Source: Ascaphus truei (taxonomy: Eukaryota; Chordata; Amphibia; Anura; Ascaphidae). From it: DNA of 64,000 nt. Of the stretch, positions 34,558-63,769 are shown one piece after another (positions within the stretch are counted from its first letter, which is position 1; each line of letters opens with the position of its first letter). Location of the stretch: positions 22,820 through 86,819 of the forward strand of contig WSYH01002442.1 in NCBI GenBank assembly GCA_036426205.1, written 5' to 3'. The translations under genes were made by a program, and so were the position numbers. The notes under the pieces are model-generated. The model was given only the letters and a program-made list of their open reading frames with translations. It had not been told where the DNA came from and made no database searches.

Positions 34558-34579
34558 GTAGAAGATCCAACTCCTGGGT

Positions 34580-35771: not shown

Positions 35772-36450
35772 TAAAACATTACGTATGTTCATTTGCATGT
35801 CTTAGACAGGTCTGCAATCCTGTCTTTCCCCATTATCGCCCAGCATACAGCGCTTCCACTGCAGCATGGGATTCTGGGAAATGACATGCAAATGAGCACT
35901 CAGTGCCACCTTTTGTCTCAAGCTCGTATTACACAAGCAAATCCTCAAGCCAATGCATGCTGTTTTAAACACAGCTTTTAGACAGAGGCTGGGATGAGAT
36001 GCAAAGCCATTAAACCCACTCACAGACATGTTTCAACCTTGATGGGTATCATCAGTGTGAGGTTGGTTGTAATGGCTAAGCTGGTTTGAGACTATAGACA
36101 AGGTAATCACCACAATTATTAAGGTTATGGTGGGTAAGAAAAGTGACAAAAACCCTCCACAGTAAAGCATAAAGCAAATGTAAATATTACTGTTTGTTCA
36201 TTTGCATGTCTTAGATAAGTCTGCAACCCTGTCTTTCCCCATTATCGCCCAGCATACAGCGCTTCCACTGCAGTGTTCATTTGCATGTCATTTCCCAGAA
36301 TCCCTTGCTGCAGTGGAAGTGCTGTATGATGGGCGATAATGGGGAAATACAGGGTTGCAGACCTGTCTAAGACATGCAAATGAACATACAGTAATATTTA
36401 CAGTTGCTTTATGCTTTACTGTGGAGGGTTTTTGTTACTTTTTTTACCCA
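35772..36450. repeat. Hairpin repeat with multiple octamer motifs
   Basis: 'ccattatcgcccagcatacag...cttccactgcag' (about 36239-36272) is answered by its complement (about 36308-36345), forming a foldback. A partial extra copy of the left arm lies at about 35800-35880. The octamer ATTTGCAT or its complement occurs at 35791, 35886, 36200, 36279 and 36374. No transposase is present. Confidence 0.7.
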
Positions 36451-36462
36451 CCATAACCTTAA

Positions 36463-36465
<3 letters not shown>

Positions 36466-36508
<43 letters not shown>
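36466..36508. repeat. (TA)n microsatellite
   Basis: About 20 uninterrupted TA units. The matching site in unit A (24565-24612) is shorter and interrupted. Confidence 0.95.
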
Positions 36509-36511
<3 letters not shown>

Positions 36512-37737
36512 CAGAAAAGACAAAAGAAGTCTCAAAAATGAGCACTCAAAAAATCCCCCAAAAAATGATACTTTAATGTCCTCAAATGTAACAAACTAAA
36601 ACATAATAAAAACACAAAACAGAACCCTGAAATAGACAGAGTGATTACATATAACATACTGTATGGCCAATATAAAAAGTCTAAACCTATACACAAATGT
36701 CAGGCTAATGCAAGAAGAGTGTAAGGTGAGATCCCAGGGAAACTAGTTCCCTGGATCAGCAAGACCGGCCGGTCACAAAATATACCAAAAAGACCTAAGG
36801 GACACACTAATGAATATACTGTTGCCAAACACATGTAAACCACACACACTGCAAGATGGAAACCGTTAAGGTAAAGCTAACCCACTGTAGTGGGGAGTGT
36901 GCAGAAATCTAGGAAAACTGTGTAGAGATGGATAAATTCGTTTGAAAAAATTACACAAAAAAAACCAAATTATTCTAAGTGTCAAAAAGAAAATCCTAAC
37001 ATAAAAAAGAACAAATGTCCAGTTGTATCCAGGATAGTATGAAATCTTGAATAAACGAATAACATATAAAGTCATTCAATTGTAGCATAGGGAATAAAGA
37101 AAAAATATACTCATCCCCCTTTGAGTTACAGAGTGCAGTAGTATAACTCAAAGATGCCAGGTAGAAGTTTCCACCAGATATCAGAATCCATATTATTGTG
37201 AGTCCCAAAGTCAACGAGGGAATATGTACAGTATCACAGATTAGAGTCTCAGGGTCACTGCAGCAGCTCCCACTCTACACGTGTTTCACCTTGCGGCTTC
37301 TTCACGGAATATGGAGACTGCAGGAAAAGACTCACTATTTAAAAGAAAGTTAGGAATTGGAGACAGCTGTCCCCAGCATGAAATCACTCGCTATTAGCTG
37401 GTAAAGTCAGAGGAGGAAAGAGGTGTGCATCTCTGCCAAGCTGTCTGCTATTTATGGTGGGGACTGGGATAAGATGTTATCTAAACAAGAAAGTTTATGG
37501 ATATATAAATTACAGACCTTGTCACCGTTAGGCATGAATGAAGAGATAGATGTCTGGTCCCTTTACTAGATACAAATAATACATAACCAACAATTATTAT
37601 GGACAATTCATTTTTTCTTAATACATTTTTTCTTAATACATAAATTGAATTAATTATTTGCCACTTATTGCTATCAATTTACTTTATTGTAAATACTGTA
37701 TGTTTAGATAAATATTAAATCAATATCCCAATTATGA
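36509..37737. other. Unassigned tail of duplication unit B
   Basis: Matches 24610-25945. No gene or RNA recognised. Confidence 0.5.
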
Positions 37738-43780: not shown

Positions 43781-46100
43781 AGTGGCGACAACCTTTAATC
43801 TAACTCGGCTAGCTCCGTGAATTTCAGATTATCCCGGTTATGTGCGGTTTTGTGTCGTTTTCGCCCGGAGTGAATTGCGTTATTTTCGCGCCCGTGATTT
43901 AAGCATTTTATTCTCGCTGTCTGCAATACTGCAATGCCATGTAAAAACTCATGGGGGCGTTTGCGAGCTGTTGTCTTTGAAGTCTAATACCTTCGCGGTT
44001 CAAGCTACGTCAGTACACAGTCTGTGCGTGCGCGCGCAGTAATAGTAAAATTGCATATTTAAAGTACATGCATTTGCAGTGCTGGGCTGCCGTACGGTAC
44101 TGTACTGTATGTCTCATTTGAAAATTGTTGAAATGCATAGGCATGTACAGTACTGTAGCAGTGTAATGGAAACCCTCGCTACTGACATTGTTTGAGTAGC
44201 CCTTTTGGCAATATTGTATCTCCTTTCACATGTCAGTGCTACACACCGTATCAAACATTTAGAAACATTTAGAAAACATACACTGTATCATTGCATATAC
44301 TTACCTGCCCTGTTAGAGGGTATAGAGCTACAGTAGCCTAGAATTTATTTGGGATACATACTCCTTTTTGGTCTACCCTTCCTCCACCTTATTTTTAAAT
44401 CGCTGCTAACATAAGATTTATGTATTGAGGATCGTATATTTTAATTGAGGATCTCTCCCAATAAATTTGTTTTTAACTTGATTTCATAACACACATTACA
44501 TCTCTCCCACACCATTCCTTTGAACGTGTGTCTGGTTTGAATCACATTCCTGCTTGACAGCAGTAATTTGCTGCGCATGCGCTTGTAACTTCGCCCACCA
44601 CTGCTTGCTTACTGTACCTGAGTGAGTGACCAAAAAGAAATTTAAAATAAAACATTTTTGGGTTCCAGGTTTCTGCTCATTCTGACTTAGCCGTTTCAAA
44701 GCAGCGTGGCTTACTCCGCCATTACGGTCAATGATAGGACCCTCCTTGCCGGCGTGACCCTTTCTCGCCACCATTACTGGTCGGACCCTGTTGGGGTCAA
44801 GTGAGGGGGTTCCTAACATCTATGGGCAAAATGAATTTTATTTCTAGGTGACCTAGAACAGAAGTTCCCACGCCAATTGGCCGTGAACTTGACCGAGACC
44901 CTAGTGCGCGATCATTGCTCTTTTTTGACAATGTTGCCGATCTTGCGGCTTTACGGTCTGGCAGTAAAAAAACACACAACAACATCTCCTTTATTTATGT
45001 ACAGTACAGCAGGTCAAAACATGCACAGTACAGTAGAGAACAATACAGTCCAGCACAACAGTATGGTCTTACCTGTGATTACCCAAAAAACTTTTATGGT
45101 AAATTTTTTTATTTTTCCTTTCTCCACAAGCCTGCAAAAACCATCTCACTGTAAAATGATATTCAATCTGTGGAATGTGAATAAATATTAATCAATAATA
45201 TATACTGTAATGTACATTATAATATATACTGTATATATACTGTATATAGAAATATTATTTTTCCGTCTATACAGTATCTTGTTCCTCATTCTGTGAACAG
45301 TACAGTACTTCATTGAGAGGTTTTGTGTAGAGTATACGTGGCGCTTTGCTCATTTTCTGCAGTTACTGTAGTCATTGTGTTTTTAATCCGTCCCTAGCCA
45401 AGCGTCAATCACCTGACTGCGCCTGCGTGTACTCTAATCCTTTTAGAGATGGGAGCTTGCTGCTTACTGCGCATGAGTCACCCAAACCCCTCTCTCCACA
45501 GAGTCGTTCATTTTCTGAATATTGCCATTGTGTTCTTAATCCGTCCATAGCCGAGCTTCAAAGCCTCAGTGCGCCTGCGTGTAATCACACCACCCCCCCC
45601 CCCAAACCCTTAGAGGCTTTGTTTACGGTAACGCTTTGGAAAATCCCTTCTCGATTTTGAAATGTAAATCCGATTTGCACAGCATTGTGAGAATTGAGAG
45701 TAAAAAAACCATTAACTGATTCATGTTGTTTTGTCATTCATTCTTATTCATTGGTGTACTGTAGGGGTAGGAGGGGGGGTTTGTGGTTGTTGTCAATGAT
45801 TATGATTAGCAGGAAAGTGAATAAATATTTATTTTATTTTATCAGAAACCAAAAAATACAAATATAAAAATAATCAGGAATAATCCATAACTCAGTCTTT
45901 ATTAAGTTCTTTTGGCAGATTGAAATAGGATAAACATTTAGAAAACATTTGTAAAACATGGGGAAACATGAATAATGCACATTTACAAGAATATTATTTA
46001 ATAATATATACTGTAATGTATAAGCATATATTATATATATATAGAGATATATATATATATAGATATATATTATAATTATATTATATATATATATATATAT
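43781..46100. mobile_element. Rearranged derivative of the BEN/HTH element
   Basis: Starts with CAGTGGCGACAAC after a TA, a Tc1/mariner-like terminus by form. 44665-44975 is the reverse complement of 54546-54874. 44970-45110 is the reverse complement of 54134-54228, which includes the few bases after the BEN stop codon. 45230-45330 matches 51000-51095 directly. It therefore carries flanks of the 51-57-kb element without its genes, like an internally deleted non-autonomous copy. A matching inverted terminus (gttgtcgccactg) was not found, so the boundaries are open. Confidence 0.6.
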
Positions 46101-46305: not shown

Positions 46306-48584
46306 TCGAGAAGCCGTCCCCTGGCGAGATGTGTTTGCAGCAGAGAGAGATCCGCTACTTTCTCTGCGCAAACATCAGCACATTAAAAATGATTTAAAAT
46401 ACATTTTTATTCATAGTGTAGATGTGCAGGGGGTCTCCGGAGCTGAACCGCATTGGTTTAAGGTCCGGGGACCCCCTGCTTACCGAGATACAGGCCCCTT
46501 TATGAGGTGCCTGTAACCCTCTGCATTTAAAGGTCCTGATCACGTGACCGCGGAATGTAAACAAAGCAGAGGGATAACGGCACCCCCTAAAGGGGCCTAT
46601 ATCTCGGGAAGCAGGTGTCCCTGGACCTAAAACCAAAGCGTTCCGCTCCGGAAACCCTCTGCACATCTACAGTATGAATAAAACATCCATATCAATAAAC
46701 AATCATTCCTTACCTTTGCGGCTATGTGCTATGGTAACGAAGCAGCATGAATGTATTTTTAATAATATTATACAGTGAGCAAGGGGTTCCCTGAGCCACA
46801 AATCAATGCAGTTCAGCTCAGGGGACCCCCTGCTCCTGCACAATATTATTAAAATACAGAAATGCTGCTTCATTACCATAGCTGATAGCCGCTAAGGCAA
46901 TGAAGTGTTAAGGCAGAATAGCATGTTTATTGGGGACATTTGCCCCCAATAAACATTGCAATAAACAACATACACCCCCTGTGTATTTAAAATACATAAA
47001 CAACAATAAATACATTAAATACATATTTTTAACATAACTGTTCCCTTTTGGTTATAACCCCACCTCCTTGACTGTAATCTGTGTAATGCCCCCTCCCCCT
47101 AATTTGTCTGTTAAATCTCCCTGCCTGTGTTCCTGTGAGTGCAGTTTATGTAAATGTGGGGAGGGGGAGGGGGATCCCGAAGTGCATATAATGCAGCGCC
47201 TCACTGCTAATGGCCCACCCCATGAGGCCTAACCACCCTCACCTACTACCCACAAGGGAGGCCTATCCACATACCATTGCCCCCCCCCATCCTGTTCATG
47301 CCCCCTCCGCTGCTGCAAAATAGACACAAAAATTAAAACATCCAAAGTAATGTCCCCTAACCCCTTAATCACAATAGCGGTTATTAACCGCTACAGTCAT
47401 TAAGGGGTTAACCCACCCTCACCCACCACTTGGGACGCCTACATACCCTCCCACATTAACCCCACACCCCGTGAGGCCAAACCACACTCACCCACTACCC
47501 ACAAGGGTGGCCTACCCACATACCGTTGGGGAACCCCCCCCACCCCCAGTACTCACAATAAAAACAATACAGTGACCCACAATAAACATCATTATATTTA
47601 TTAAATACATTACCCACCCCCTGTGCCCCCCATAAATACAAGATTTATTCTTTTACAAACAGGGTTCATAACGCAGCCCCACGTGAGTTCCCGGTGGGCT
47701 GGCGGGGCACATGACAGACCTACAGGGTACCAGCAGCCCTTTTCAAACAGGTTCTGGGGGCCTGCTGGTGGGTCCTGCCAAGTGCCATGGCCCCCAGGTG
47801 GTCTCCTTGGGTCACTATGGGCCACAATTGGGTCCCCACGGTAGGCCCAAGGATGTCTGGGAGCCCCGGGTCAGACCCACAGGTGTCTGCGGGGCCTCGG
47901 GTGGTTCCCATGGGGGTCTGGGGAACTCACGAGTGCTCATTATGGGTCCGTGGTGCCCCCACAGAAGTGGGACCACAGCTTCATCCCCGCACCTATGGGT
48001 TGGCGGTGCCCCCACGGAAGTGAGGCCACCGCTTCATCCCCTCAGACTATGGGTCCACGGTGCCCCCACAGATGTGAGGCCACCGCTTCATCCCCGCATG
48101 TGTCACCCGTGGAACCACCAGCCTGATACTCGTGAGATACCCGAGGAGACCCGCAGGTGGTCTCCAGAGGTTCTACGCAGAACCACGGAACAAACCCTGA
48201 ATGTAAAAAAAATAAACCTGGCCTATACATTCAATACATACACCCCCCCCCCCAACACCTACAGTACAATAATGTGCAAAATAACTATTATCCAGATATG
48301 GATAATAGATTAATTGCCCATTATTAAAAACATTAACTAGCATATTCAAATAAATAAAGTACTACTGACCTCATCAATAAGAAGTCTCCGTCGCCAGCAA
48401 CATCCTTGTCTTGCCCACAAAATACATAGCCAATACAAAGCCAATACATTGCAAGTACATTAAGATATCAATTAACCCCTTAAACACCTTATCGGATAAT
48501 AACCGCAAAGGTAATTAAGGGGTTAAACCACACTGGCCCGATACCCACCCTTCACCCATGAATTTGTACAGTGGCTTCATCATG

Positions 48585-48587
<3 letters not shown>

Positions 48588-48640
<53 letters not shown>

Positions 48641-48657
48641 GAGAGAGAGAGAGAGAT
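48588..48657. repeat. (TA)n / (GA)n compound microsatellite
   Basis: About 23 TA units followed by cacaca and about seven GA units. The mirror position in the right arm (50265-50372) is also a TA/TG-rich microsatellite. ORFs made of repeated Tyr-Ile are artefacts of this run. Confidence 0.95.
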
Positions 48658-48947
48658 ATTTATACTGTATATACACACACATGATGAACCAATATACAAA
48701 TAAATGTAGAAGCGTTATCAAAACCATACTGTACTACAAATAACACTTCTCCATACAGACACACTACATTAAAATGAATTTCCTTTAATAATCCTAACTG
48801 ATCTTACAATCTAAATCATCAAATGCAATGAAAAACCTCACATTCCAATCAATACATTGCATTTACATTGTATATATATGATGCATAAAATCTATGCACA
48901 TATACATTCTGCAAATGAATGTTAACAATATCATTGCAAGCAAAATA

Positions 48948-50057
48948 CAAATACCTCCAAACAAGTAAACTATTTTAACCAATCAAGTAAACAAAAATTA
49001 ATTAGCATTCATTATTTACATCCCTAAACAATTGACAGTCCATCTCGAACAATTAAACAATTAACTAATTCAAGCCTGGAACAGAACAATATAGCATGTG
49101 AAAAAATATAAGTACCAACCAGAATACAAAATTTAAAACCAAGGCTAACCATGACCACAAGCACACAATACAATACCAAGGATTACATCTATCTAATTGT
49201 AAAAAACATTATACACACATTGAAGCATAGCAGCATAGCCAAATTAATTTAAAACACATCAAATCAAGATTTTAAAATAACAACATTTCTTACCCTGTAT
49301 GTATATATCTCTCTAGACATATATACATACATACATACAGTGGCAAGAAATTATATACCACAAATAAATAAATACACATGTTAAAAAAACATTAAAAAAA
49401 TTTACAAGCACAATTAAATACATTTCTTTAGTTCACTTAGCATTACTTGGCCCCACCGACTCCTGTTGAACAGCTTACTCACGTACAAAACAACCAGGCA
49501 CAGGAACCCATAAAATAAAAAACCATAAAAAAATAAACATTAAACTAAAAATCCAAATCAATCCACGGGTCTTCTACTTGTAATCCATCTTCATCTGTAT
49601 TCTTCTTTCTTCTACCTTCTTCCAGGGTCTTCTTCCCATCTTCGGCCACGCCCTGGTCTTCTTTCTTCTGTAGGAGGTCCTTCCTCCTCGGCGGCTGGCT
49701 TCAAAATGAGACGACATAGGCTTTAAAAAGGCCTATGACGTCACATTTTCGTCATATGGTTCCCACTGCCCTCATTGGGCCGTGAAAACCATGTGTTTTG
49801 GCCGATAAAAATAAAAATGATGACGTCAATTAAAGGCAATGAAAGCACAGCCAATCAGAATGGCTTTGCTTCAATTGCCTTTAAGATCACGTCATGAAAA
49901 GAAACATGGCAGTCCTCACATGGTACGGTAGCCAATCAGAGCGTGGGAACTCCATCCCTACTCTGATTGGCTCTAGTACCATGTGACAGAGGCTTGGGGG
50001 AGAACGGATATGACGTAATTGAAAGCTTGTCACATGGTACTAGAGCCAATGATACTG
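48948..50057. other. Centre of the inverted repeat, non-coding
   Basis: No ORF of note. Contains (ATAC)n near 49320-49338 and a 'acagtggcaagaaa' motif at 49338, which resembles a Tc1/mariner terminus but lacks a partner. Confidence 0.5.
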
Positions 50058-50731
50058 CTTGCAATGATATTGTTAACATTCATTTGCAGAATGTATATGG
50101 TGCATAGATTTTATGCATCATATATACAATGTAAATGCAATGTATTGATTGGAATGTGAGGTTTTTCATTGGCATTTGATGATTTAGAAGTGTTATTTGT
50201 AGTACAGTATGGTTTTGATAACCCTTCTACATTTATTTGTATATTGGTTCATCATATGTGTGTGTATATATATATATATATATCGGGGTGCGGGGGGTGG
50301 TATATATATATATATATATATATTTCTGTGTATATGTGTATATGTGTATATGTATATATATATATATATAGTTGCATGATGAAGCCACTGTACAAATTCA
50401 TGGGTGAAGGTTGGGTATCGGGCCAGTGTGGCTTAACCCCTTAATTACCTTTGTGTTTATTATCCGATAAGGTGTTTAAGGGGTTAATTGATATCTGAAT
50501 GTACTTGCAATGTATTGGCTTTGTATTGGCTATGTATTTTGTGGGCAAGACAAGGATGTTGCTGGCGACGGAGACTTCTTATTGATGAGGTCAGTAGTAC
50601 TTTATTTATTTGAATATGCTAGTTAATGTTTTTAATAATGGGCCGGGGGCCTCCGGTGCTGATATTCCTGGGTATCAGCTCTGGAGCCCCCTGCATCAAT
50701 CCGAGCCAGGAAAAGGACTGATCTTCCTAAT

Positions 50732-51003
50732 TTTTTAACGAAACACCTGCAAGTCGACACATTACTGAAGCGCATGCGCATTACAATTCATGAATTTCTG
50801 CCATCTGGCGGACACGCGAAGCATTGCAGCCTATTAAATCCTGAACCATTATCAATAAACGCATCAACCGCGCGTCAGCCGGGCATGACCCGTGGCTGGG
50901 AACGCAAAAGGAACGCGGCATGCTCCGGGTGAACAGCGTCGCATTCCAGGAACAAGCCAGGGAAAAAACGGTAATTTGTTAGAATAAAAGCTGCCGCAGC
51001 AGT
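50732..51003. repeat. Direct repeat L of the BEN/HTH/forkhead element
   Basis: About 270 bp matching 57112-57387 in the same orientation, with roughly a dozen differences. Both run from 'acgaaacacctgcaagtcg' to 'gctgccgcagcagtatata'. At 57.4 kb this segment is the upstream region of the forkhead ORF, so this copy duplicates that promoter and leader. Beyond it, 51004-51095 matches 45235-45330. Confidence 0.9.
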
Positions 51004-51517
51004 ATATAGTAATATTATTTTTTCCGTCTTTATCTTGTTCCTCATTCTGTCTACAGTACAGTAGTTCATTGAGAGAGGAGAGGTTTTGTGTACATCATTA
51101 CTGCTGTTTATATACTGTACATTTTACTGTACAAACAGATTAGACTGGACACATAACCCCACCTCCCCCCAGGCCACCCTTTTTTCCTGAAACGACAAGA
51201 AAACAAAAAATGAGTGCAGTTATGTGCGTACTGTATTATGGCATTGTGTGATGTGTAGTACTACTGTAGATGGCTGGTGCTGCTTTCTCTGGAAAGAAAA
51301 TAATTGAGAGTTAGTAGGCAGTTACTGTAGTACTGTCAAACTAGTCTATACTGGAACTACTGTATACTCTGACTACTGTTAAATAATATGTACTGTAACC
51401 TGGTGCTGCTCTCTCTGTAAAGAAAAAACTGTAACTACTGTATACTCTCTCTGTAAAGAAAAAATCTGTGCCATACTTACATGTATCATACTGTACTTAC
51501 AATACTACAGCACAGTA
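51004..51517. other. Non-coding, TACTGTA-rich
   Basis: Rich in the palindromic word family tactgta/tacagta. Lies 3' of the HTH gene on the minus strand and may contain its 3' untranslated region. No ORF is supported. Confidence 0.45.
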
Positions 51518-52483
51518 CTACTTTCCTGATGCTTGCCCATTATGCGCGATGACAATAGGCAACACAGTGGCAATATGGTCTATATATTTATTGCAGCGTT
51601 CCACGGTGAGTACAATGTTCCAAAAACTCATTATGCCTTTCAACAACTTGTCCTTTTTGGAGGGTTTCGCCACTTTCTCCCTACAATGTAAAGAAAATAT
51701 ATTGTTTTATTAATATGCAGAAATATAAAATGTATATAAATATAATGTTGTAATATAAATACAGTATAAATATACCAAAAATATATACTGTTGTACGATA
51801 AATATAAATATACAAAAAATGTATACTGTTGTACTATAAATATAAATATACAAAATATATATACTGTTGTACTATAAATATAAATATAATATATACTGTT
51901 GTAATATAAATATAAATATACATCCTATATATACCGATGTACGATAAATATAAATATACAAAAAATGTATACTGTTGTACTATAAATATAAATATACAAA
52001 ATATATATACTGTTGTACTATAAATATAAATATACAAAATATATATACTGTTGTAATATAAATATATATATACATCCTATATACTGTATACCATTGTACG
52101 ATAAATATAAATATACAAAAAATGTATACTGTTGTACTATAAATATAAATATACAAACTATGTTGTAATATAAATCAACAGAAATAACAACAGTATCAGA
52201 TACAGAACTGTACTGTAGATGTACTGTACTGTATGAACAGTACAGTACGTACAGTTTTCTATATTTTTTTTGTTAAGTTTTATAAATATTCTTACGCGTT
52301 AGTTACCCTTGGTGCCCTTTTGCGGTCTCTGTTTTTTCCGTATGCATGATAGCACACGGTGGTTGCTTGCACAACGAGGTCAGAAGTAGCTAACCAGCGC
52401 TGGATAGCAGCAATTCGGTGTCCGCTCATGTACATCTCCTTAATTCGCATGCTGAGCTCCTTTGAAATCTTTTTAACAGGCAT
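51518..52483 (-). CDS. Two-exon helix-turn-helix protein (116 aa predicted)
   Basis: Exon 1 is 52483-52296 and exon 2 is 51680-51518. The ATG at 52483 opens 'MPVKKISKELSMRIKEMY', followed by 'SGHRIAAIQRWLA', which resembles the N-terminal helix-turn-helix of Tc1/IS630-type transposases. The exon-1 frame reaches a stop soon after a strong donor (gc|gtaaga). A pyrimidine-rich acceptor (tttacattgtag|g) opens exon 2 in matching phase, giving a Lys-rich segment 'EKVAKPSKKDKLLKGIMSFW' and a hydrophobic helix before TAG. The intron is 615 bp and holds a 38-bp minisatellite. A TATA box sits ~95 bp upstream. No DDE catalytic domain is seen, so it may be a DNA-binding accessory or repressor. The splice model is inference. 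Confidence 0.6.
51725..52160. repeat. 38-bp minisatellite in the HTH gene intron
   Basis: About eleven units of ~38 bp (tactgttgtactataaat, then aaatatacaaaatatata). Variant units (…acgataaat…, …catcctatata…) recur in the same order, indicating a higher-order repeat of about four to five units. Confidence 0.88.
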
Positions 52484-52578
52484 TGCTGCGAGTAGAAAGA
52501 AATACAAACACAAGAATGTGTATTCGATGTTTAGTCGATGTGTATTCTATGTGCAGTCAATACACAAAATGGATGGTG

Positions 52579-52586
52579 TATTTATA
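52579..52586 (-). promoter_or_regulatory. TATA box of the HTH gene
   Basis: TATAAATA on the minus strand, ~95 bp upstream of the predicted ATG at 52483. Confidence 0.6.
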
Positions 52587-52643
52587 CGGTAATGACTCAC
52601 ATTAGAGTACGCCCACTTTCAACACCTGTACCTGGTCGCCATG

Positions 52644-52650
52644 TATAAAA
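52644..52650 (+). promoter_or_regulatory. TATA box of the BEN gene
   Basis: TATAAAA followed by GG, ~93 bp upstream of the ATG at 52737. It overlaps the upstream in-frame ATG at 52641, which therefore should lie outside the transcript and is rejected as the start. Confidence 0.68.
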
Positions 52651-52736
52651 GGTTACACACTTTGCATAGCCCACCACTCAATGATCTTTATCTGAACTTT
52701 CCCTTGTCCAGATACTGCATTGTGCCACCTGCTTCC

Positions 52737-54134
52737 ATGGAGCAACCCCGATTCTATGGACGCAGGAACCCATTCGCCTCTGTCGTGCCTGTCAAGCTGA
52801 AAAAGCGAAAGGTGACAGCCGTTCCCACGCCAAGGCAAAAGCGACAGGCTAAGGCCAATAAAGAAAACATTCTGCTTACCCCAAAGGCTAAGGGTTTAAT
52901 TAGACGTAAGCCTCATTATGTCAAGAAGATATACGGTGATGTACTCTCGACGCAAAACGATTGGCAGCCAACCCATCGAAAACGCAGACCACTTCCTCAC
53001 ATACGCTTCGACGACTCTGCTGTAGCTGTCCCGGAAATCTTCAGCCCGTCTTCTCCACCCCCATCTTCTCCGGTTCCATCCGACGATGCCGCCGCCTCTG
53101 AAATCCACGTGTCACTTTCTCCTTTGCTCTTAGACGACTCTGCTTCTCGGCCGGAAATCCAAAGGTCACTTTCTCCATCCCTCTTCGATGACGCTGCAGC
53201 TTCTCCTCTACCGGGTATCCACAGGTCACCTCCTCCACTTTTCCTCGATGCCGCTTCTGTCCATGGAACCCCCGTCTCATCCTCCGTTGCACCCATCCCC
53301 CCAGATGTCCAGATGCCATGCACAAGAAGCAGGTCGTTAGACCGAATGCTGAATGAGATAAGTGTGGATCTCCTCGGGAATTCTACTGTGCTAGCAAAGA
53401 TAGATCTGCTTCTGGAGACAATGCTAAATGTGGAGCAACGGATGCTACAAATGGATCAACGGATGGATCGACGGATGGAGAAGATAGAGGCTGACATAGC
53501 GGGCATACATTATTTGCTCGGTGCTAATACCCCTGTTTCCCCGACGCCGGAGCAGGGGGGTGAAATGGATGTGATGAATGGGACCTTCGACCCCCTTCCA
53601 TCACCAAGCGCACCCCCTCCACCAGAAGATGTAGTGTACATGTATGCCGTTGAGGAGGATATGACAACCCCGTCAAGACCACGCCAGGAGACAACATGGC
53701 GACCACGACCGGAGGAAAGCTTCCTCCCAGACAACCTACCATTGCCCGTCGCCTCAAGCATACCCGCTCCCAAAAGACCTACACCCGCTCGCATCTATAC
53801 GGTGCCCGACATCACGCTGTGCGATCTGCCACCAAAGCTCAGGGAGAAGTATAGGGTGAAGAGTGCTGCATCACCCCATAAGTATGCCTTGTTCATATTT
53901 AAGCACCATGTTCCCTACTCTTTGTTCTGCGACTTGGCCTTCAAAGTGAACTACGATGGGAATCGCGTAAAAAAGGCGCTTCCTGTCAATTTAAGGAAAA
54001 ACATTCTGGATGAAATGCGGCGCTTTTATCCAATTACAGATCCTGTAATGAAAGGCGTTCGAGACTGCATTAATGGCGTTTTGCGCCATGCAAGGAATCG
54101 GCCATGGATGGACAATGTGGAGGACTTTCTGTAA
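52737..54134 (+). CDS. BEN-domain-like protein, 465 aa, intact
   Basis: The start is ATG 52737 in a good context (cttccatgg). The N-terminus is strongly basic ('KLKKRKVTAVP', 'RQKRQAKANKEN'), likely nuclear-localising. Residues about 85-180 contain an imperfect Ser/Pro repeat with 'PEIQRSLSPSLFDDAA'-type units. Residues about 195-260 look like a coiled coil ('RMLQMDQRMDRRMEKIEADI'). The C-terminal ~95 residues ('HKYALFIFKHHVPYSLFCDL', 'KKALPVNLRKNILDEMRRFY', 'CINGVLRHARNRP') have the spacing of a BEN domain, a DNA- and protein-binding fold in chromatin factors. The frame is fully open amid decayed repeats. The divergent HTH gene shares its upstream region. No catalytic residues are seen. Its role in mobility or regulation is unknown. 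Confidence 0.68.
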   Translation: MEQPRFYGRRNPFASVVPVKLKKRKVTAVPTPRQKRQAKANKENILLTPKAKGLIRRKPHYVKKIYGDVLSTQNDWQPTHRKRRPLPHIRFDDSAVAVPEIFSPSSPPPSSPVPSDDAAASEIHVSLSPLLLDDSASRPEIQRSLSPSLFDDAAASPLPGIHRSPPPLFLDAASVHGTPVSSSVAPIPPDVQMPCTRSRSLDRMLNEISVDLLGNSTVLAKIDLLLETMLNVEQRMLQMDQRMDRRMEKIEADIAGIHYLLGANTPVSPTPEQGGEMDVMNGTFDPLPSPSAPPPPEDVVYMYAVEEDMTTPSRPRQETTWRPRPEESFLPDNLPLPVASSIPAPKRPTPARIYTVPDITLCDLPPKLREKYRVKSAASPHKYALFIFKHHVPYSLFCDLAFKVNYDGNRVKKALPVNLRKNILDEMRRFYPITDPVMKGVRDCINGVLRHARNRPWMDNVEDFL

Positions 54135-55960
54135 GACCATACTGTTGCGCTGAACTGTATTGTACTGTACATGTTTTGACCTGCTGTACTTAAACAAAGG
54201 AGATGTTGTTGTGTGTTTTTTTACACAGGACATGCACAATTCCAGTCCCTGGGGGCCGCAAGCAGGCACGGTTTTCAAGGTTGTCCTGAAAACCTGCCCT
54301 GTTTGCTGCCCTCGAGGACTTTACTGGTGCAGGTCTGACTGACAGTGTTGCGCACCATCCCACTGTACTGTACTGTATACTGTGTTTCTTTAATAAAGGA
54401 GATGTTACTTAAAATGTTTCAACATTGTACAGTATTTGTAAATAAATAATTTTGTACTTACTCCACCAATAAAAGAACATGTTGATTTGTCTTATATTGT
54501 TTCCATTTGCTCCTTTGATAGTGTAACAAATGTCGAGACTTACTGCACTGTTTTTTTACTGCCAGACCGCAAAGCCGCAAGTTCGGCAACATTGTCAAAA
54601 AAGAGCAATGATCGCGCAATTGGCGTGGGAACTAGGGCCTCGGTCAAGTTCACGGCCAATTGGCATGGGAACTTCTGTTCTAGGGCACCAAGAAATAAGA
54701 TTAATTTTGCCCATAGATGTTAGGAAACCCCTCACTTGACCCCAACAGGGTCCGACCAGTAATGTCGGCGAGAAAGTGTCACGCCGGCGAGGAGGGTCCT
54801 ACCATTGACCGTAATGGCGGAGAAAGCCGCGCTGCTTTGAAACGGCTAAGTCAGAATGAGCAGAAACCTGGAACCCATAACTCTGATTCTGTTCAACCTA
54901 GAGGGCTCAGATTCGGTCACCATGTAGTACTAGTTCCGGCAGGATTGCATGGCAAATAGCGACCCTCTCGTGGAAACAGAACAGAGTCAGGGTAATGGCA
55001 AAGTTTATGTTTCTGCCATGGACTTGCAAGGCAGAAAAAAGCCACTTTTGTAATGTGTTTTTAAAATTTATTTTTGTTTCTCCGGTTCTGGGGGACGTGA
55101 AAGGCTGATATTTGGCCACTATGGCAAGGGTCCTTCCGCATGAGGACCAGGCATATTTCAACCCGCTCAGACCCACAGAACAGATTATTTTAAATTATAT
55201 TTATATATTTATATATTTATATTTTAAAGATATTAAAGAATGTATTGTATTTTGGGTCGAGGACTGTAGTGGTGCAAAATGTTTTGCACACCATCCCACT
55301 GTACAGTATACAGTATGTATTGACTTGTCGTTCTTTAATAAAGAAGATATTGCGTTTTTTTTTTTTTTGTGAATTAAGAATTTGTTTTTAAAACATGTGA
55401 CTGCAAACCATACTGACTGACAAATGTTTTCACACATGTAGCAGTAAACCATACACCTGTTGATGTTTTGAATTGCTGTGCACTTAAAATGTTTCAACAT
55501 TGTACAGTATTTGTAAATAAATGTTTTTGTACTTACTCCGTGAAACCCAGTGTTCAAGTGCAGAGAAACAATGTGAAACCCAGTATCTGGATCCTAACTG
55601 TTGTAAGGGAATCAGTAAATCTGGATCCTAATTTGTACTTACTCCACCAATAAAAGAACATGTTTATTTGTCTTACATTGTTTCCATTTGCTCCTTTGAT
55701 AGTGTAACGAAAAACAGTGTTTCTAGAATGTCGAGGCTTACTGCACTGTACTGTATACTGTAGACATGCTCAGTATACTGTAAGAGTACTAAAAAAAATA
55801 GAAGAATAGAAATACACAAACTGTACTGTACAGTATGTACTGGCACTGTATACTGTAGAAGACACATAATGTAAGTGATACTGTACATGTAGAATAAATG
55901 CATAGTTTTATTTTTTCGGGTTTATTACACAGTATACTGTACTGCCGGAAAACATCAGCA
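54135..55960. other. 3' flank of the BEN gene, with internal duplications
   Basis: Contains AATAAA near 54392 and 54443, suitable for BEN-gene polyadenylation. A block (ttaaaatgtttcaacattgt; ctccaccaataaaagaacat; ttgctcctttgatagtgtaa) occurs at 54410-54550 and again, with insertions, at 55485-55745. 54546-54874 is the inverted partner of 44665-44975. No coding region is supported. An AATAAA-containing run at 55340 precedes a 13-T tract. Confidence 0.6.
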
Positions 55961-56032
55961 TACAGTACTGTTTCAGGTACAGTATTCTATCCCAATCAAT
56001 AACAAGGGCAAAAAAACTATAGACGTGGGGTT

Positions 56033-56973
56033 TTAAATCCGATTCAGCAATGTGCAGGCAATGTCACACAACACGATATTATCCATCGAAATCCCCCCAT
56101 TAGCCGTTTTCTTTTCTGAGGAAAAACAAAAAGAAAAGTTTTAATGTACATTAATGGTCAGCCCCCTAAAGAAGCCTGCCCCACCCATAATTTTCTCCTG
56201 TTCACATGCGCATGCGCCTAGCGTTCCACCAATTGTTCAGTATCTGCAGTACAGTACTGTAGAAGCCGCTCAGCCAATGATATTGCTTACAGGAGAATCG
56301 CTTGACTTTGGTATCGCACCGATATTTATACAGTATTGTCAAAATAAAAAAAACACAGAAAATAATATGGCAACAATACTCACCATAGTATTTCCCATTC
56401 AGCTTGCGCCGGCGCCGGTCCACTGCTGGTCCAGATTTCTTGATCATCCACGTCGATAGTTTGCAGCGGGACTAGTCCACCTGTAGTCAGCTGGTGAGGC
56501 TGGAAATTGCTTAGGTACATGCTAGCTTCATCGAAACTGCACGCGAAATCCGGCTCAGCCTCAGGCTCAGGCTCAGGGTTGTCACTGACGGCGCGACCGT
56601 CATTGGAAGCCGGTGCTGGTGTATTGCTTGGCAGCGACTGTCGTTTCTTAGTTGGTTTTAACACGACCCTTCGCCTTTTGCCATCATCATGATCATAGAT
56701 ACAGGAAAAAGCCGGTGAAACACACCAATACCCTCCAACAAATTGTGGCTCAATACGATAAAAACAGGGATCGCTACATAACCTTTTACTTATTGCACGC
56801 TTCCACGTATGAGGAGTTGGTGAAAATTTGTAAAAGTCATAGTTTTCGACAATTTACTGATAAATTTGAACAACTGTTGCCATCTTATCCTCTGTTGCAT
56901 TAATCGCGGCCCATATTAAATACGCGTAACTTCTGTCGGGTTTTTGGAAACCGGGCTGCACTTGAACACTCAT
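56033..56973 (-). pseudogene. Forkhead-like domain gene with a nonsense mutation
   Basis: From an ATG in ideal context (cccgccatga) at 56973, one frame runs to 56380 with a single TAA at codon 40 (56854-56856). Around it, 'KPDRSYAYLIWAAI', 'DKMATVVQIYQ', then after the stop 'IVENYDFYKF', 'TWKRAISKRLCSDPCFYRI' and 'VGGYWCVSP' match the helices and wing of a forkhead domain in order (canonical KPPYSY, IYQWI, W-x3-I-x3-L-x4-CF, G-YW). The stop falls at the conserved Trp of IYQWI. Recognition-helix residues differ from canonical ones. The rest is basic ('GKRRRVVLKPTKKR'), then acidic and proline-rich. A donor (atg|gtgagt, exon end 56384) and acceptor (cctcag, exon start 56115) predict a 268-bp intron. 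The joined frame ends at once, so exon 2 may be untranslated. Confidence 0.72.
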
Positions 56974-57400
56974 GGCGGGCTGGTCTCTGGAGAATACTGT
57001 AACCAAAACTGGTCTTTGTCTTTCTTTAATATGAGAAGCCTTAATTGATACATTTTTGCAACCTCTTCCTTCAGTCTCAAGGCCAAGTTTACAATAGCAC
57101 ACTGTGGTATCTTTTTTAAACGAAACACCTGCAAGTCGACACATTACTGAAGCGCATGCACATTACAATTCATGAATATCTGCCATCTGGCGGACACGCG
57201 AAGCATTGCAGCCTATTAAATCCGAACCATTATCAATAAACACATCAACCGCGCGTCAGCCGGGCATGATCCGTGGCTGGGAACGCAAAATGAACGCGGC
57301 ATGCACCAGGTGAAGAGCGTCGCATTCCAGGAACAAGCAAGGGAAAAAACGGTGATTTGTTAGAATAAAAGCTGCCGCAGCAGTATATACACATAGTGTA
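56974..57400 (-). promoter_or_regulatory. Upstream region of the forkhead ORF
   Basis: The minus strand carries TATATAC at about 57380-57386, some 410 bp upstream of the ATG. The reading frame is also open from an ATG at 57144, but the 56973 ATG has the better context. The distal part (57112-57387) is duplicated at 50732-51003. Promoter assignment is inference. Confidence 0.45.
57112..57387. repeat. Direct repeat R of the BEN/HTH/forkhead element
   Basis: Partner of 50732-51003, same orientation. The pair brackets the HTH, BEN and forkhead genes with a ~6.4-kb spacing. It does not have TG...CA ends, so it is not an obvious LTR. Confidence 0.9.
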
Positions 57401-57639: not shown

Positions 57640-57804
57640 AGAGGATCTGGAGGAGGCGCATGCGCGGCGGGAACGGAGATGGCAGCCTGATTTGAGTGCT
57701 CCGATACCCGTCGGCAATAAATAAAGCACTACAACTGCAAAACCCAACAAAAATATCCCTGCACTGCGGGACCGGCTAAAGCCAAGATCACAGCAACCAC
57801 ACAC

Positions 57805-58770
57805 ATGGCGGCGACTCGCAAAAAAACTAAACAAAAGGTGGATGTACGCACCTATTTCGTGGGGGCAAAGAAGGCAAGAGAGACAGACAGCATGGCGGCC
57901 TCCGACTCAGATTCCGCACCGGAGTTGGAGTCGGCCCCGGACGAGCAGACGGGGGCTTTAAAGAGGGAAATTGCCCAACTCCTCTCTGACCTAAAAACGT
58001 TTTTCCGCGGAGAGGTGGACCAGCTAAGGAAGGACATACTGAACATCGGGACACGAACGCACGCCCTGGAGGAGAAAATGGAGGAGTCCTCCCGCTCTCA
58101 AAATGTAACAGACACCAGGGTCTCTGCGCTAGAGAGAAGGGTGGCAGAGCTGGAAGAACGCCACGAGGACAGCGAGAATCGGGATAGGCGCAATAACCTG
58201 AGGGTTAGGGGGATACCGGAGGAGATACTAGACCCCGAAGTGTTGCTGAATCGCTGGATGTCCTCCATTATGCCGGGGAAAACGGAAGCAGAGCTGGTCA
58301 TGGACCGGTGCCACCGTGCATTACGGGCCCGACCGCTTCCTAACAACCCACCCAGAGACATAATTCTGCGTCTGCATCATTTCACCACAAAGGCAGAAAT
58401 CAGTAAAATTACACGAGCCACCCCAACGGTGAAATTCGAGGGAATAGAAATGGCCATATTTCAAGACATTTCCCCGATTACATTGGCACGGCGCCAGGCC
58501 CTCCAGCCAGTTACCAAACTACTAAGGGACAGAAATATAAGGTATAGATGGGCCTTTCCCTTTGCCCTGATCGTGGTGCAAAACGGTCGGTCCCATGTAC
58601 TAAAACACCTTACAGACGGCGCAGAGTTCCTGAATAAGTTGAATATACCTCATGATCTCCCACTAGTAGAGGCCCAGGTGGGGCGCCCTCCCAGGCGGAC
58701 GGAATGGGAAAAGGTGGGCTCACCTAAAGGTCCGCGACAAGCTACCTCAAGATCGCCCAGACCGGCATGA
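57805..58770 (+). CDS. LINE ORF1 protein (L1 ORF1p-like, 321 aa)
   Basis: An intact 321-aa frame starting at an ATG in 'cacacatggcgg'. After a Lys-rich N-terminus, residues about 50-125 form a coiled coil rich in Glu, Leu and Arg ('LKREIAQLLSDLKTFF', 'VSALERRVAELEERHEDSEN'). 'RDRRNNLRVRGIPEE' then opens the RNA-recognition domain typical of L1 ORF1p. The C-terminal domain follows ('RDIILRLHHFTTKAEISKI', 'FQDISPITLARRQALQPVTK', 'YRWAFPFALIV'). The protein would form RNA-binding trimers that package the element RNA. Length matches the family (about 300-350 aa). The tail is basic and Ser/Pro-rich. Confidence 0.92.
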   Translation: MAATRKKTKQKVDVRTYFVGAKKARETDSMAASDSDSAPELESAPDEQTGALKREIAQLLSDLKTFFRGEVDQLRKDILNIGTRTHALEEKMEESSRSQNVTDTRVSALERRVAELEERHEDSENRDRRNNLRVRGIPEEILDPEVLLNRWMSSIMPGKTEAELVMDRCHRALRARPLPNNPPRDIILRLHHFTTKAEISKITRATPTVKFEGIEMAIFQDISPITLARRQALQPVTKLLRDRNIRYRWAFPFALIVVQNGRSHVLKHLTDGAEFLNKLNIPHDLPLVEAQVGRPPRRTEWEKVGSPKGPRQATSRSPRPA

Positions 58771-59964
58771 GGGCTTTTTAAGCAGCTCTCCAGCTATGCT
58801 GGACACATCAGTTCCTGTTATTAACCCGGTTAAAGTTATCTCCCAGCCAGTGAATACCACTGAGTAATACCCACAAAAGCGACTGACAGTGGGCGACCCC
58901 TCTGCCCCCTCTCGATGGGTCCCGACCCAGATAGCCAAACCCCGGCGGAGGATGCTAGAACAGCCAAAAAGAAAAAAAAGAAAACAAAAGTAAAGAGAAA
59001 CATAACACTCACCAAAATGGCGGCCGGAGACGATCCGCGGGAGAATCTGGAGGAGAGGCGCGGAAACAGAATGGCGGAGATCAATTGGGCGCGAAAAAGA
59101 GAAGCTCCTGCTAGCTCCGCCTTCGGGACACGCCTGCTCCCTCGGCTCACCACGGACTGGAATGCGCACGCAGCCCGGAAGACGACAGAGGGCGGTCCCC
59201 GGCGAGTCCGTGTCGATCCGGATCTGACGTCAGTGACAGCGCCTGCGGAGCAGGACAAAGATGGCCGCGCACCGGAGCAGCGGGGCAGAGGATCTGGGGG
59301 GAGTCACTGAGAGGGAGGGGGTGTTCTGAGGGGGTCCGCGCATTCCCCCGAGGGGACGAGGGAGAGGGGGGCTAAGCCCGATTAAGACACACAGTTAAGG
59401 GTTGTTAAAGAGCTGGACTGCTAACAGTAAACAACCACAGTCTATAGCACACAGCGGTCTGCAATAAGACACAGAAACAATACAGACCAGCAAATATGTT
59501 GTTGAACTTGCAAAACACGGCTATTATTTTAGTTGTTCTTTTAAAAAAAATGTTTATGTTGCCGACGGGGGGGCGGATGCCTGTCCTCTTCCCTACCTGT
59601 TGGCATGTGCCTCTGGGGCTGGACTGTGGCCTTAAGCCACAGGTCAGTCAAAGACCAGGGGATCCGCAGTCTGGAGTCTCCCCCTCAATCCCGGACGGGA
59701 AGGTGGGATCATCCGGAATATGTGCGGCATCCCCAGGCAGTAAACCACAGGTCAAATAAGACCAAGATGGTTTCCCTTGTATGTTCTACAAGGATTTATG
59801 TTCCCTGTCACTCCCCTATGTGTTTTCCTCCCCATCCCACAGGTATCCCAAGAGGAAGCAGCTCGGCAGACAGAGAGCAGCAGTACCGCTCCCGACACCG
59901 GCAGAAAAGACAAGGGTAGGAAACAAGCACAGCACACCCGCAAGGTCTCACTACATAAACACCT
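58771..59964 (+). other. Inter-ORF region of the LINE
   Basis: 1.2 kb between ORF1 and ORF2, longer than in mammalian L1. An open frame at 58915-59310 (131 aa) is Lys/Arg-rich and low in recognisable content. It contains repeated 'atggcgg' motifs like those of the 5' region. Whether it is translated is unknown. The stretch ends just before the ORF2 ATG in 'cacctatggcattg'. Confidence 0.5.
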
Positions 59965-62900
59965 ATGGCATTGACATTTATATCACAGAATGTTAAGGGA
60001 TTCAACTCCCCTCAAAAGCGTAGAATCGCCTTTGCTGAATTTAAACGCAGGAAGACAGATGTTTTATTCCTACAAGAGACGCACTACTGCTCGAGAAAAA
60101 ACCCGGGGTTCATAGATAAACATTTTAGGAAGTTCTATCTAGCCTCAGCCAAGGAAAAAAAAAAAAGGGGTAGCCATTCTACTACATAACAGAGTCCCAT
60201 TTGAGATGGAAAAAATAAAACGAGACCCAGGCGGTCGATACATTATATTGGTGGGCACATTGCAACAATGTAGAGTAACACTGGCGTGCATATATGCCCC
60301 ATGTGAAAAAGACCCTAAATTCTTCACAGAGTTCTTCCTTAAGCTGCAGCAATGGGCTTCCGGCAATATAATATTAGCGGGAGATTTCAATAAGGTCTTA
60401 GACCCTCGCATAGACAGGTCCCCTAGAAGGGAGAAAACGCGACAAGCAGGGACGACGGGGTTGATGGAGGGGCTGAGACGGCTGTGTCTGGTAGACATAT
60501 GGCGGGAACAGCACCCAGGTGACCGTTCATATACATTCTATTCACACCCCCATGACAGCTATAGCAGGCTAGACCACTTCTTTGTGTCGAGCAGAATGGT
60601 CCCACAAATCACCGGCACCTTAATTCATGACATTTCATGGTCGGACCATGCATCAATTGAGCTTAAATGCACGCAAATTAGATCGGTTAGCCCGGGAGCA
60701 AACTGGAAATTAAACGAGTCCCTAATAAAGATACCGGAATTGGCACAGATAGTCAAAGACGAGATTAGACAATTTTTTGTCATGAACGCAGGTACAGTGG
60801 AATCTCACACTATACTGTGGGAGGCTCACAAGGCCACAATGCGTGGAACGCTCATTAGTCTCGCAGCAAGGCGAAAAAGACAGAGGGAATCGAAATTGTC
60901 ACAACTATACAAGAGGTTACATGAGCTCTCCCCACTTCATAGCCGATCAGGTGGAGAAGACATTCTTAAGGAGTTGAAGGATGTAAGGATAGAACTTAAC
61001 CTCCTCCTCACATCCCAGGCCGAGAGGGACATTAGCTGGACCAAGAGGAAATTTTTTGAGAAAGCCAACAAACCGGATACTATGCTAGCCAACAGGATTC
61101 GCAATAGGCAACCAAACTATAACATACAGGCCATCAGAACCAAATCGGGGGAATTGACCTCCAACCCGAAACGTATAGTGGAAGAGTTTAGACTTTACTA
61201 TGAACAGCTTTATAATGGGGAGAAGGTGATACACAATTCCAAAACAAGCAAATTATTACAGACCTTCCTAAAAGAGGCAGCCTTACCTAGGCTGAGCAGA
61301 GTGGAGAGCGAGGCAATCCAGACTGATTTCACTCTGGAGGAACTGACCGCGGTTATCAAAAACCTCAAACCCTCTAAGGCCCCGGGCCCAGACGGGTTTT
61401 CTAATTTATACTACAAAAAATACATAGGGGTTCTAGCACCGCACATGCTCAAGTTATTTAACGGAGTCTTGGCGGGGGAACCCTTCTCGGACCAGATGCT
61501 CCAGGCGTCGATATCTATAATCCATAAACAGGACAAAGATCCTACAAACTGTCAAAGCTATAGGCCGATATCATTAATCAATTCGGACGTCAAGATATAT
61601 TCCAAATTGCTGGCCAACAGATTGAGCGCAATCATGCCAAGGCTTATCCACCCGGACCAAGTTGGCTTTATTAGCAATAGACAAGCGGCCGACAATACTA
61701 GAAGAATCATAGATATCATTAACTTTATCAATGCCAACGGGATCCGAGGTGTAGTATTAAGTTTAGACGCAGAGAAGGCCTTTGACAGGATTGACTGGCC
61801 ATTCATGGAGTCCACGCTTGAAGCATTCGGGTTTGGAGGTAAAATTCTAGGGGCAATAAACGCATTATATACAACCCCGACCGCCAAGGTGGTCCATCAA
61901 GGATTCCCGTCAGAGTTGTTTAAAATCAAAAGCGGGACCAGACAGGGCTGCCCACTCTCGCCCTTGTTGTTTGCCCTATGCATGGAACCGCTAGCGGCGC
62001 ACATACGTCGCAACCCGGATATTGCCGGCATTCAAATTCAATCCCAAGAGCACAAAATCGCTCTGTATGCAGATGACATTATCTTGTCGCTGACGAAACC
62101 GCTTACCTCGCTGCCCAATCTGTTTGCTCTACTGGAAACATTTGGCAGAATCTCCGGATTTAAGATAAATCAATCTAAGTCGGAGGCACTGAACCTAAAT
62201 ATTCCAAAGGAGACGGAGAAATTAATAGAGATCAACTTTCAGTTTAAATGGCAGCCCAAGGCGATAAAATATTTAGGAATATACCTAACTAAACATAACT
62301 CCAATCTTTATCAGGAGAATTATCCGAGACTCCTAAGAGCCCTCACAAAAGAACTAAAAGATTGGTCTGCATATGGGATATCCTGGATTGGCAGAATTTA
62401 CTGTGTGAAAATGAACCTCCTCCCCAGGATACTCTACCTGTTCCAAACACTTCCGATACCCGTGGTGAGATCAGACATTAAGGAACTGCAGAGCGCAGTT
62501 ACACAGTTCATCTGGAAGAATAAAAAGCCACGGGTAAAAATGTCAATTATGCAAAGACCTAAGGAAACTGGAGGCTTAGCAGTACCGAGTTTGATGGCCT
62601 ATTATAAAGCAGCACAACTATGCCAAATTACTCAATGGCATGGTGATCCGGAGCAGAGGCGATGGGTGGCACTGGAGAGGGAGGTCTGCGCCCCGCTCGA
62701 GCTTAAGGATATACTGTGGTATCCTAAACCCAGACTAAAAGATATGCAGAACCCGCTGCCCACGGTGCATAACTCCCTATCGGTCTGGGAAGCGGCCAAA
62801 AGTAATCACACATTAACCTCAAAACATTCTTTAATGACCCCCCTATACGGAAATCCAGACTTTGCTCCAGGGCTGATAGGTAGGAACTACACTCTCTGGC

Positions 62901-63769
62901 AAAACTTGGGGCTGAGAAGGCTTAAGGACCTGGAGGGACGAGACACGATCAAAACATTTGAACAATTGCAGTCAGATACGGACTTACCAAACACAGAGTT
63001 TCTTAGATACCTACAGGTCCGGGCATTTTATACCAAACACATCAATAGACCACCTCTAACTAATTTTGAAAAGCTCTGTGCTCGGGGAACCGACACACGG
63101 GGACTCATCTCTGCTCTATACAGGGAAGTGGTTAGGGCAGACACCGACGGATCGCGCAAAACCAGGTTTATGACACAGTGGGAGACTGACCTGACAGGAC
63201 CGTTAGAAGACGAAGAGTGGACGGCGATCTTTAAGGCTGCGGCCAGTAGCTCGATTTGTACGACATTGAAGGAAAACTCATATAAAGTGTTAATGAGGTG
63301 GTATCTCACCCCAGTTAGATTGGCTAAATTCGTCGCGGGCGCTTCCCCGCTCTGCCCCAGACGGTGCGGGGAACGGGGAGATCTGGTACATATGCTGTGG
63401 TCTTGTCCACGAATCATACCCGTTTGGACACAAATCAGGGATTGGCTACAGAGGGTCTTCCTGGGCCTCAAAATTACACTTGACCCGTGGGTTTTCCTAT
63501 TAGGTAAGCCCACAGATGAGGTATCGAGATCAGGAAATAAATTAATAGCACACTTTGCTACGGCGATGAGGTGCGAGACCGCAGCACTGTGGAATCAGAA
63601 TACAATTCCATCAATAGACAAAATTCGGAACAGAATCTGGTTTGCTTGCCAGATGGAAAAGTTGACGAGTCTGGTCAACGACACTGGCGTAAATTTCCAA
63701 AAAGTCTGGTCACTGTGGCTGGCACAGACCGACATCCCAGGGATGAGCAATGCCTCCGTCTGGCTTTGA
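59965..63769 (+). pseudogene. LINE ORF2 (endonuclease-RT), single frameshift
   Basis: The endonuclease starts in frame one ('LTFISQNVKGFNSPQKR', 'DVLFLQETHY'). After a 12-A run at 60155-60166 it continues in the next frame from 60206 onward, open to 63769. Endonuclease residues are all present: 'ACIYAP', 'LAGDFNKV', 'SRLDHFFV', 'SWSDHASIE'. Reverse transcriptase shows 'PSKAPGPDGF', 'YRPISLINSDVKIYSKLLAN', 'LSLDAEKAFDRIDW', 'GTRQGCPLSPLLFALC' and 'IALYADDIILSL'. A C-terminal 'CPRRCGERGDLVHMLWSC' is the C-C-H-C cluster of this group. Total length is about 1,268 codons, normal for the family. One extra A explains the break and could be a true mutation or a sequencing error. Confidence 0.9.

Follow-up and report, generated by a model that had tools for sequence, protein, structure and literature searches.

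A probable Tc1/mariner-type transposon carrying a forkhead gene in the genome of Ascaphus truei

Results and Discussion

Layout of the Locus

The window, that is, the whole stretch of 64,000 nt of Ascaphus truei DNA analyzed here, contains a forkhead exon, a further gene of opposite orientation (referred to as the third gene) and two pieces of a transposase gene (Table 1). Forkhead proteins are DNA-binding proteins controlling gene expression, and as a rule they are owned by the host. The genes lie between two direct repeats of approximately 277 bp (50731–51008 and 57113–57389), which had been reported at about 270 bp by an earlier reading of the same sequence (hereafter, the first-pass annotation) and are indeed present, being 95.7% identical and situated 6.4 kb apart. 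The window copy of the element has two defects, a stop at codon 40 of the forkhead frame (56856–56854) and a missing transposase center.

Table 1. Coordinates of the element copy in the window, its genes and related sequences
Feature	Position in the window	Strand	Comment
Element copy in the window, decayed	51005..57385	-	Head at 57385, TA at 57384-57385
Element head end (right "direct repeat")	57113..57385	-	Imperfect inverted terminus TACTGCTGCGGCAGCTTTTATTCTAAC
Forkhead exon, MSVQVQP... to likely splice donor GTGAGT (from 56383)	56384..56973	-	PF00250, relatives P0003-P0006
Third gene, 497-aa ORF, conserved C-terminal part	52641..54134	+	Two homologues, both from A. truei
Transposase exon, PAI-type helix-turn-helix	52298..52483	-	Sleeping Beauty PAI match
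Tc1/mariner transposase C-terminal remnant	51521..51688	-	Match to the L014 exon join at residues 277-331
Second element copy, truncated, head at a TA (left "direct repeat")	50731..51004	-	
Element-related rearranged fragment	44656..45329	-	Matches 54131-54880 and 51002-51092 in opposite orientations

Forkhead Gene

The translation of the minus-strand frame that starts at 56973 is MSVQVQPGFQKPDRSYAYLIWAAINATEDKMATVVQIYQ*IVENYDFYKFSPTPHTWKRAISKRLCSDPCFYRIEPQFVGGYWCVSP. Both the forkhead domain and its stop codon, claimed by the first-pass annotation, are confirmed, the domain by comparison with the Pfam profile PF00250, which matches the two halves of the window frame in profile order, each below the gathering cut-off of 27 bits (first half, profile positions 1–30, 21.2 bits, E 3.2e-4; second half, positions 32–83, 19.1 bits, E 1.5e-3), and by four A. 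truei relatives, P0003–P0006, all of which score above it (63.0, 58.0, 48.3, and 57.8 bits). The A. truei protein P0003 is 83% identical to the second window half over 38%, covers positions 1–85 of the 88 positions of the forkhead profile (63 bits, E 2.8e-17), and matches FOXL2 and FOXA structures in PDB, which score alike (E 7.6e-10 to 8e-10). In a protein search, a single candidate out of 20 was returned for the window half and four out of five, the query included, for P0003, all of them from A. truei; as this search demands common exact words and similar lengths, it cannot show absence of relatives outside A. truei.

Like vertebrate forkhead proteins of the FOXA/FOXL2 type, the element-borne protein has the domain over nearly the whole profile, but it differs from them in having two additional residues inserted ahead of helix 3 and a shortened wing, and family A, to which P0003 belongs, has WKRAVRKRLCSD where they have WQNSIRHNLSLN. 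The base-contacting residues of helix 3 in Fox proteins are Asn and His; in P0003 these are replaced by Arg and Lys.

A purine is found at position –3 ahead of the forkhead ATG in 21 of 21 copies, and the splice donor pattern occurs in 16 of the 20 copies other than that of the window (it is not matched in L014, L017, L019, and L027).

Dispersed Copies and the Common Head

A six-frame search of the A. truei assembly with P0003 yielded 15350 first-look candidates. The best 150 were scored; they have E-values of at most 1.3e-60, are spread over many contigs, and in 145 cases have no stop inside the match, that is, comprise at least 145 open forkhead frames. Twenty copies (L009–L028) were fetched from among these 150, all from stop-free matches on large contigs. 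Since these matches were the ones with the highest protein scores and the fetched copies are stop-free, both the stop counts and the dN/dS values given below favor conserved copies.

In all twenty copies the gene is situated just inside a common terminus, TACTGCTGCGGCAGC... or its close variant, outside of which the flanking DNA is different. The head of the window copy has the same terminus, again with different flanks. The suggestion of the first-pass annotation that the forkhead gene lies within a mobile element stands. The point where the match with the window begins precedes the forkhead start by approximately 0.4 kb (approximately 0.8 kb in L023, with a MITE in between). This combination of copy number (150 strong matches among the best-scored ones, on many contigs) and a terminus common to 20 of 20 fetched copies excludes an isolated host Fox pseudogene, to which the stop codon of the window copy could otherwise have pointed.

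The comparison of copies also explains the two repeats. As the matches of all twenty copies start at window position 57385, the right repeat represents the end of the element itself. The tail side of the window copy is cut off at 51004, where the head of a second copy follows: past 51005 other copies run on differently from the window, the other elements reading ...AATATTACTATACAG or close to it near this point, and at this TA the window sequence passes into a head. The left repeat is therefore the head of the second copy; the two heads differ by 11 mismatches and one gap. The view that the repeats bound one element as a pair is thus not sustained, the repeat being the head end in the twenty other copies. 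Of the dispersed stop-free copies with the same flanking repeats which the first-pass annotation expected of a mobile element, the stop-free copies (145 of the 150 scored) and the common head (20 of 20) are observed, and the flanking pair is not.

Direct repeats of such length, identity and spacing could also delimit an LTR-bounded element (an LTR retrotransposon or a provirus-like element) that has caught the forkhead and other genes. This explanation is rejected by the copy comparison and retains hardly any probability: the repeat is the head by the forkhead gene in 20 of 20 other copies, second heads being confined to the noisy duplicates L010, L021, and L028, the other end of the element is formed by an inverted terminus bearing TA, and the scanned element frames contain neither reverse transcriptase nor integrase, a DDE_3 transposase being present instead. 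Tandem or circular intermediates were considered for the second heads of these three loci and rejected; the second heads are taken as assembly duplicates, because the upstream flanks are common and the differences are largely indels.

Element Ends and Insertion Site

The far end could be paired with the head in seven copies, L009, L017, L018, L027, L023 (continued into L030), L024 (into L031), and L026 (into L032). Each begins with TACTGC and finishes with ACTGTA, and TA is present at both ends in seven of seven, the ends having been placed by a motif that includes this TA. Read inward, the termini are TACTGCTGCGGCAG-CTTTTATTCTAAC and TACAGTGGCGACCAACTTTATTCTAAC, forming an imperfect inverted repeat (aligned by eye). 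Tail-type ends are also present in L011 and L029 (in the latter at approximately 6823), where they are unpaired; the tail ends in the 10-kb extensions are at positions 22 in L030, 685 in L031, and 4243 in L032. In L017 the interval between the head and the tail is not shared with other loci, making the pairing less certain. The distance between the ends ranges from 2.2 kb (L018) to approximately 8.8 kb (L023 to L030). A related MITE of approximately 390–409 bp with similar ends occurs in L012, L015, L017, and L023.

If the flanks of L018 are joined with one TA retained, an unbroken frame of 195 aa runs across the junction. It has weak matches to aspartyl protease profiles, below the cut-off (the best E-value is 0.007, at residues 53–149, with the junction at approximately residue 75). 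This empty site is as expected for an insertion into a retroelement gene with duplication of TA, judging by the reconstructed sequence. Among the other six joins, a frame of at least 80 residues crosses the junction in L017 and L023, and in four there is none.

Shared sequence beyond the first tail boundary had prompted consideration of a large or virus-like element, which was rejected; of the four 10-kb extensions, three contain the paired tail and the fourth, L029, the unpaired tail-type end.

Transposase and Gene Order

The helix-turn-helix gene proposed by the first-pass annotation gains support from other copies: a profile of the PAI exon built on eight copies matches the PAI subdomain of Sleeping Beauty with E 5.4e-4, compared to 0.29 for the same subdomain with the L014 exon join and no Pfam match for the window exon. 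Tc1/mariner transposases have a paired PAI/RED helix-turn-helix; the putative second member of this pair was seen by eye alone.

The catalytic exons are missing from the window copy, and fuller ones are found in L014 and L020. Of nine frames from these two loci scanned against Pfam, three match DDE_3, all below the cut-off (E 4.9e-6, 7.3e-6, and 0.02), and six have no match to it; the scan gave one more weak match, to an unrelated family. A PDB search with two single L014 frames returned no transposase. When five L014 pieces are joined, the match to DDE_3 rises above the cut-off of 28.6 bits (39.3 bits, E 7.4e-10), and the join matches Sleeping Beauty SB100X (PDB 5cr4) with E 2.3e-11, including the segments QDNDPKHTA and SPDFNPIE. 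The join served as a search query, and its exon borders, including the junction ahead of SPDFNPIE, were guessed. The catalytic spacing of Tc1/mariner transposases is DD34–39E.

Within the 10 kb fetched for each of the twenty copies, eleven have transposase matches, ten have the third gene, and eight have forkhead alone; in L010 the transposase match within the element is limited to the first exon. The order head, forkhead, third gene (on the opposite strand), transposase is observed in L013, L014, L020, L023, L024, and L026, and in L023, L024, and L026 all three genes lie between the head and the tail. Four copies (L011, L012, L025, and L027) have the transposase in inverted orientation with respect to the head. 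Several copies have inverted subterminal duplications, suggesting flipping by recombination.

One may ask whether the forkhead and transposase units are in fact two elements, nested or adjacent. In that case the forkhead unit would be non-autonomous and would depend on a related transposase for its movement. The inverted transposase core in four copies, the inverted subterminal duplications, and the forkhead-only copies with both ends (L009 and L018) are in line with such an arrangement, but six copies are collinear from the head through the transposase, and three of these enclose all three genes between both ends; we consider two elements decidedly improbable, and a single element carrying all three genes remains the preferred reading.

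Third Gene

The third gene contains proline-rich stretches and a coiled-coil-like repeat. Its whole ORF has no Pfam match, its C-terminal part has none up to E 10, and no match was found in PDB and no relative among viral contigs; two structure models have low confidence (mean pLDDT 49.4 and 46.1). Its earlier description as a BEN-like gene is neither supported nor excluded by these searches. In the A. truei gene model P0002 the N-terminal part of the third gene is fused to a repeated unrelated array; P0002 is possibly a chimera or an annotation artefact.

Other Forkhead Families

A search of the assembly with PF00250 produced 12894 candidates, of which 150 were scored. A gap in the E-values sets off the top 21 of these 150, which we read as host Fox genes; the ten of them that were fetched (L033–L042) look canonical. 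The remaining 129 of the 150 have E-values from 1.5e-23 to 4.5e-17, approximately 44 of them with stops, and a few may be host exons. Four of the 129 (L043–L046, represented by the forkhead stretch alone) constitute two further families, B and C.

Families A, B, and C have in common the two-residue insertion before helix 3 and, where the sequences reach it, the shorter wing. In helix 3 family B retains NSIIHNLSLN, the corresponding segment of P0003 from family A being RAVRKRLCSD. In the phylogenetic tree, constructed without FoxN, FoxP, and FoxR relatives, a branch with support 100/99 divides ten host-type sequences (nine from A. truei and one FOXL2; L038 was omitted as having the same domain as L037) from the other eight. 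When the tree is drawn from its midpoint, family B falls on the host side; for this reason a single capture of the forkhead by families A, B, and C is compatible with the sequences, and we go no further than that.

Selective Constraint

In the forkhead domain (91 codons, 24 sequences) dN/dS equals 0.20 in frame, a value biased low by the choice of copies with the best protein score, versus 1.31 and 1.79 for the two alternative frames, and the sole in-frame stop among the 24 sequences is that of the window. An earlier alignment of the domain yielded 0.54; its 23 sequences included three noisy assembly duplicates. For the remainder of the forkhead exon dN/dS is 0.75 (0.87 and 0.74 in the other frames), for the third gene, 0.58 (0.85 and 1.08), with 0.59 in its C-terminal part and in-frame stops in 6 of 10 aligned rows, and for the transposase, 0.96 in the PAI exon, 1.42 in the second exon, 0.64 in the first DDE exon, and 0.69 in the last one. 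The noncoding control yields 0.58, 0.76, and 0.89, depending on the frame. As the control itself falls to 0.58 in one frame, the forkhead domain alone stands clear of it.

Between families, with one sequence representing each, synonymous differences amount to 22.5 of 35.8 sites for A and B, 32.2 of 37.3 for A and C, and 31.8 of 37.2 for B and C, and nonsynonymous ones, in the same order, to 56.5 of 150.2, 59.8 of 148.7, and 50.2 of 148.8. The within-family ratio is 0.24 in family B (L043 and L044) and 0.65 in family C (L045 and L046), from a single pair in each case.

These data bear on the possibility that the forkhead is a passenger, that is, a piece of a host gene that was caught once near a Tc1/mariner end and has been amplified without use. 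Eight of the twenty copies have forkhead with neither transposase nor the third gene in the stretch fetched, the copies were picked by protein score, and any function of the forkhead is putative; against this, the in-frame constraint is observed within family A and also when the three families are compared with one another (one sequence each), and the purine at –3 and the donor pattern are present in all 21 and in 16 of 20 copies, respectively. We regard a passenger as unlikely, if less so than two separate elements, and tentatively favor a forkhead gene that is used by the element.

Element Identity and Possible Role of the Forkhead Protein

Taken together, the common terminus, the inverted ends with TA, the relationship of the transposase, the forkhead domain, and the high copy number make it very probable that the window copy is a decayed A. 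truei transposon of the Tc1/mariner type, with a forkhead gene by one terminus, a third gene, and an exon-split DDE transposase. The likeness to Tc1/mariner elements such as Sleeping Beauty is in the TA at both ends, the inverted termini, the probable PAI-type helix-turn-helix, and DDE_3. Typically, though not strictly, Tc1/mariner elements have a single gene and a length of about 1–5 kb; the element considered here differs in its length (from 2.2 to approximately 8.8 kb, the latter in L023 to L030), the splitting of its transposase into exons, and the two additional genes, one of them encoding a forkhead, three genes in all.

The transposase would cut at the ends and move the element. The forkhead gene would have been taken from a host Fox gene, and its protein, the recognition helix of which is no longer canonical, may act for the element by binding its noncoding DNA, perhaps at the abundant TACTGTA/TACAGTA stretches. 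Such binding could drive transcription of the element genes in particular cells or help to assemble the ends. We propose this role, binding of the element DNA for transcription or end assembly, tentatively and by analogy, rating it at slightly below an even chance.

The motif ACTGTA/TACAGT occurs 48 times in the window element, with 4.8 occurrences expected; eleven copies contain 446 occurrences in 69.2 kb (6.45 per kb), compared to 16 in 17.0 kb of the upstream flanks (0.94 per kb), and the tail terminus opens with TACAGT. The TACTGTA/TACAGTA stretches are candidate sites for any DNA-binding protein of the element rather than specifically for the forkhead; they may also be no more than sequence of low complexity. 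The canonical motif GTAAACA/TGTTTAC is absent from the window element, for which its frequency in the remaining window sequence would predict approximately one occurrence.

DNA-binding helpers encoded by the elements themselves are exemplified by TnpA of plant En/Spm, which binds subterminal repeats, and by the Myb-like proteins of Harbinger; their folds differ from the forkhead, for which a helper role is putative. Kolobok lineages carry extra proteins, among those named being nucleases, a helicase, and KolX (PMC9587614). The resemblance to Kolobok is in the combination of a transposase with a lineage-specific extra protein, but Kolobok is a different superfamily, and the extra proteins named are not of the Fox type (PMC9587614). 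As accessory proteins in DNA transposons are already known (PMC9587614), the new component is the forkhead cargo. Titles and abstract openings in the literature covered, with most subscription journals outside this coverage, mention no forkhead-carrying transposon.

Hosts are known to have recruited DNA-binding domains of transposons. In the present case the transfer seems to have gone from host to element, with a transposon that carries a transcription factor domain of a developmental type and has been amplified to a high copy number. In the broader interpretation, for and against which we see equal chances, a vertebrate DNA transposon has captured a Fox transcription factor as a working part, the gene has since diverged into several mobile families with altered DNA-contact residues, and the resulting selfish lineage of forkhead proteins, with hundreds to thousands of loci, would read transposon DNA and may act on host genes; family A is known in the element, and families B and C are known from forkhead stretches alone. 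Possible control by a transposon over where it is expressed thereby becomes testable, in one genome where many element-borne forkhead frames and host Fox genes coexist.

Neighboring Sequence in the Window

Other repeated sequences are also present in the window. A near-intact LINE (57721–63769, plus strand) starts approximately 340 bp from the element head and has two frames, one of 349 aa and one of 1208 aa, the latter with matches to endonuclease (E 4.2e-9) and RVT_1 (E 3.7e-40). Pieces of a gypsy-like pol gene are located at 27797–30519 on the minus strand (RVT_1, E 1.9e-29; integrase core, E 9.6e-10). An inverted repeat of 540 bp with 99.8% identity is formed by positions 56–595 and 784–1323, and an element with inverted arms of 343 bp, 93% complementary, occupies 48316–50643. 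Finally, positions 14376–25934 and 26211–37729 constitute a direct duplication of 12 kb with 392 mismatches and 569 gap openings, which resembles a noisy false duplication introduced by the assembly, like those in L010, L021, and L028.
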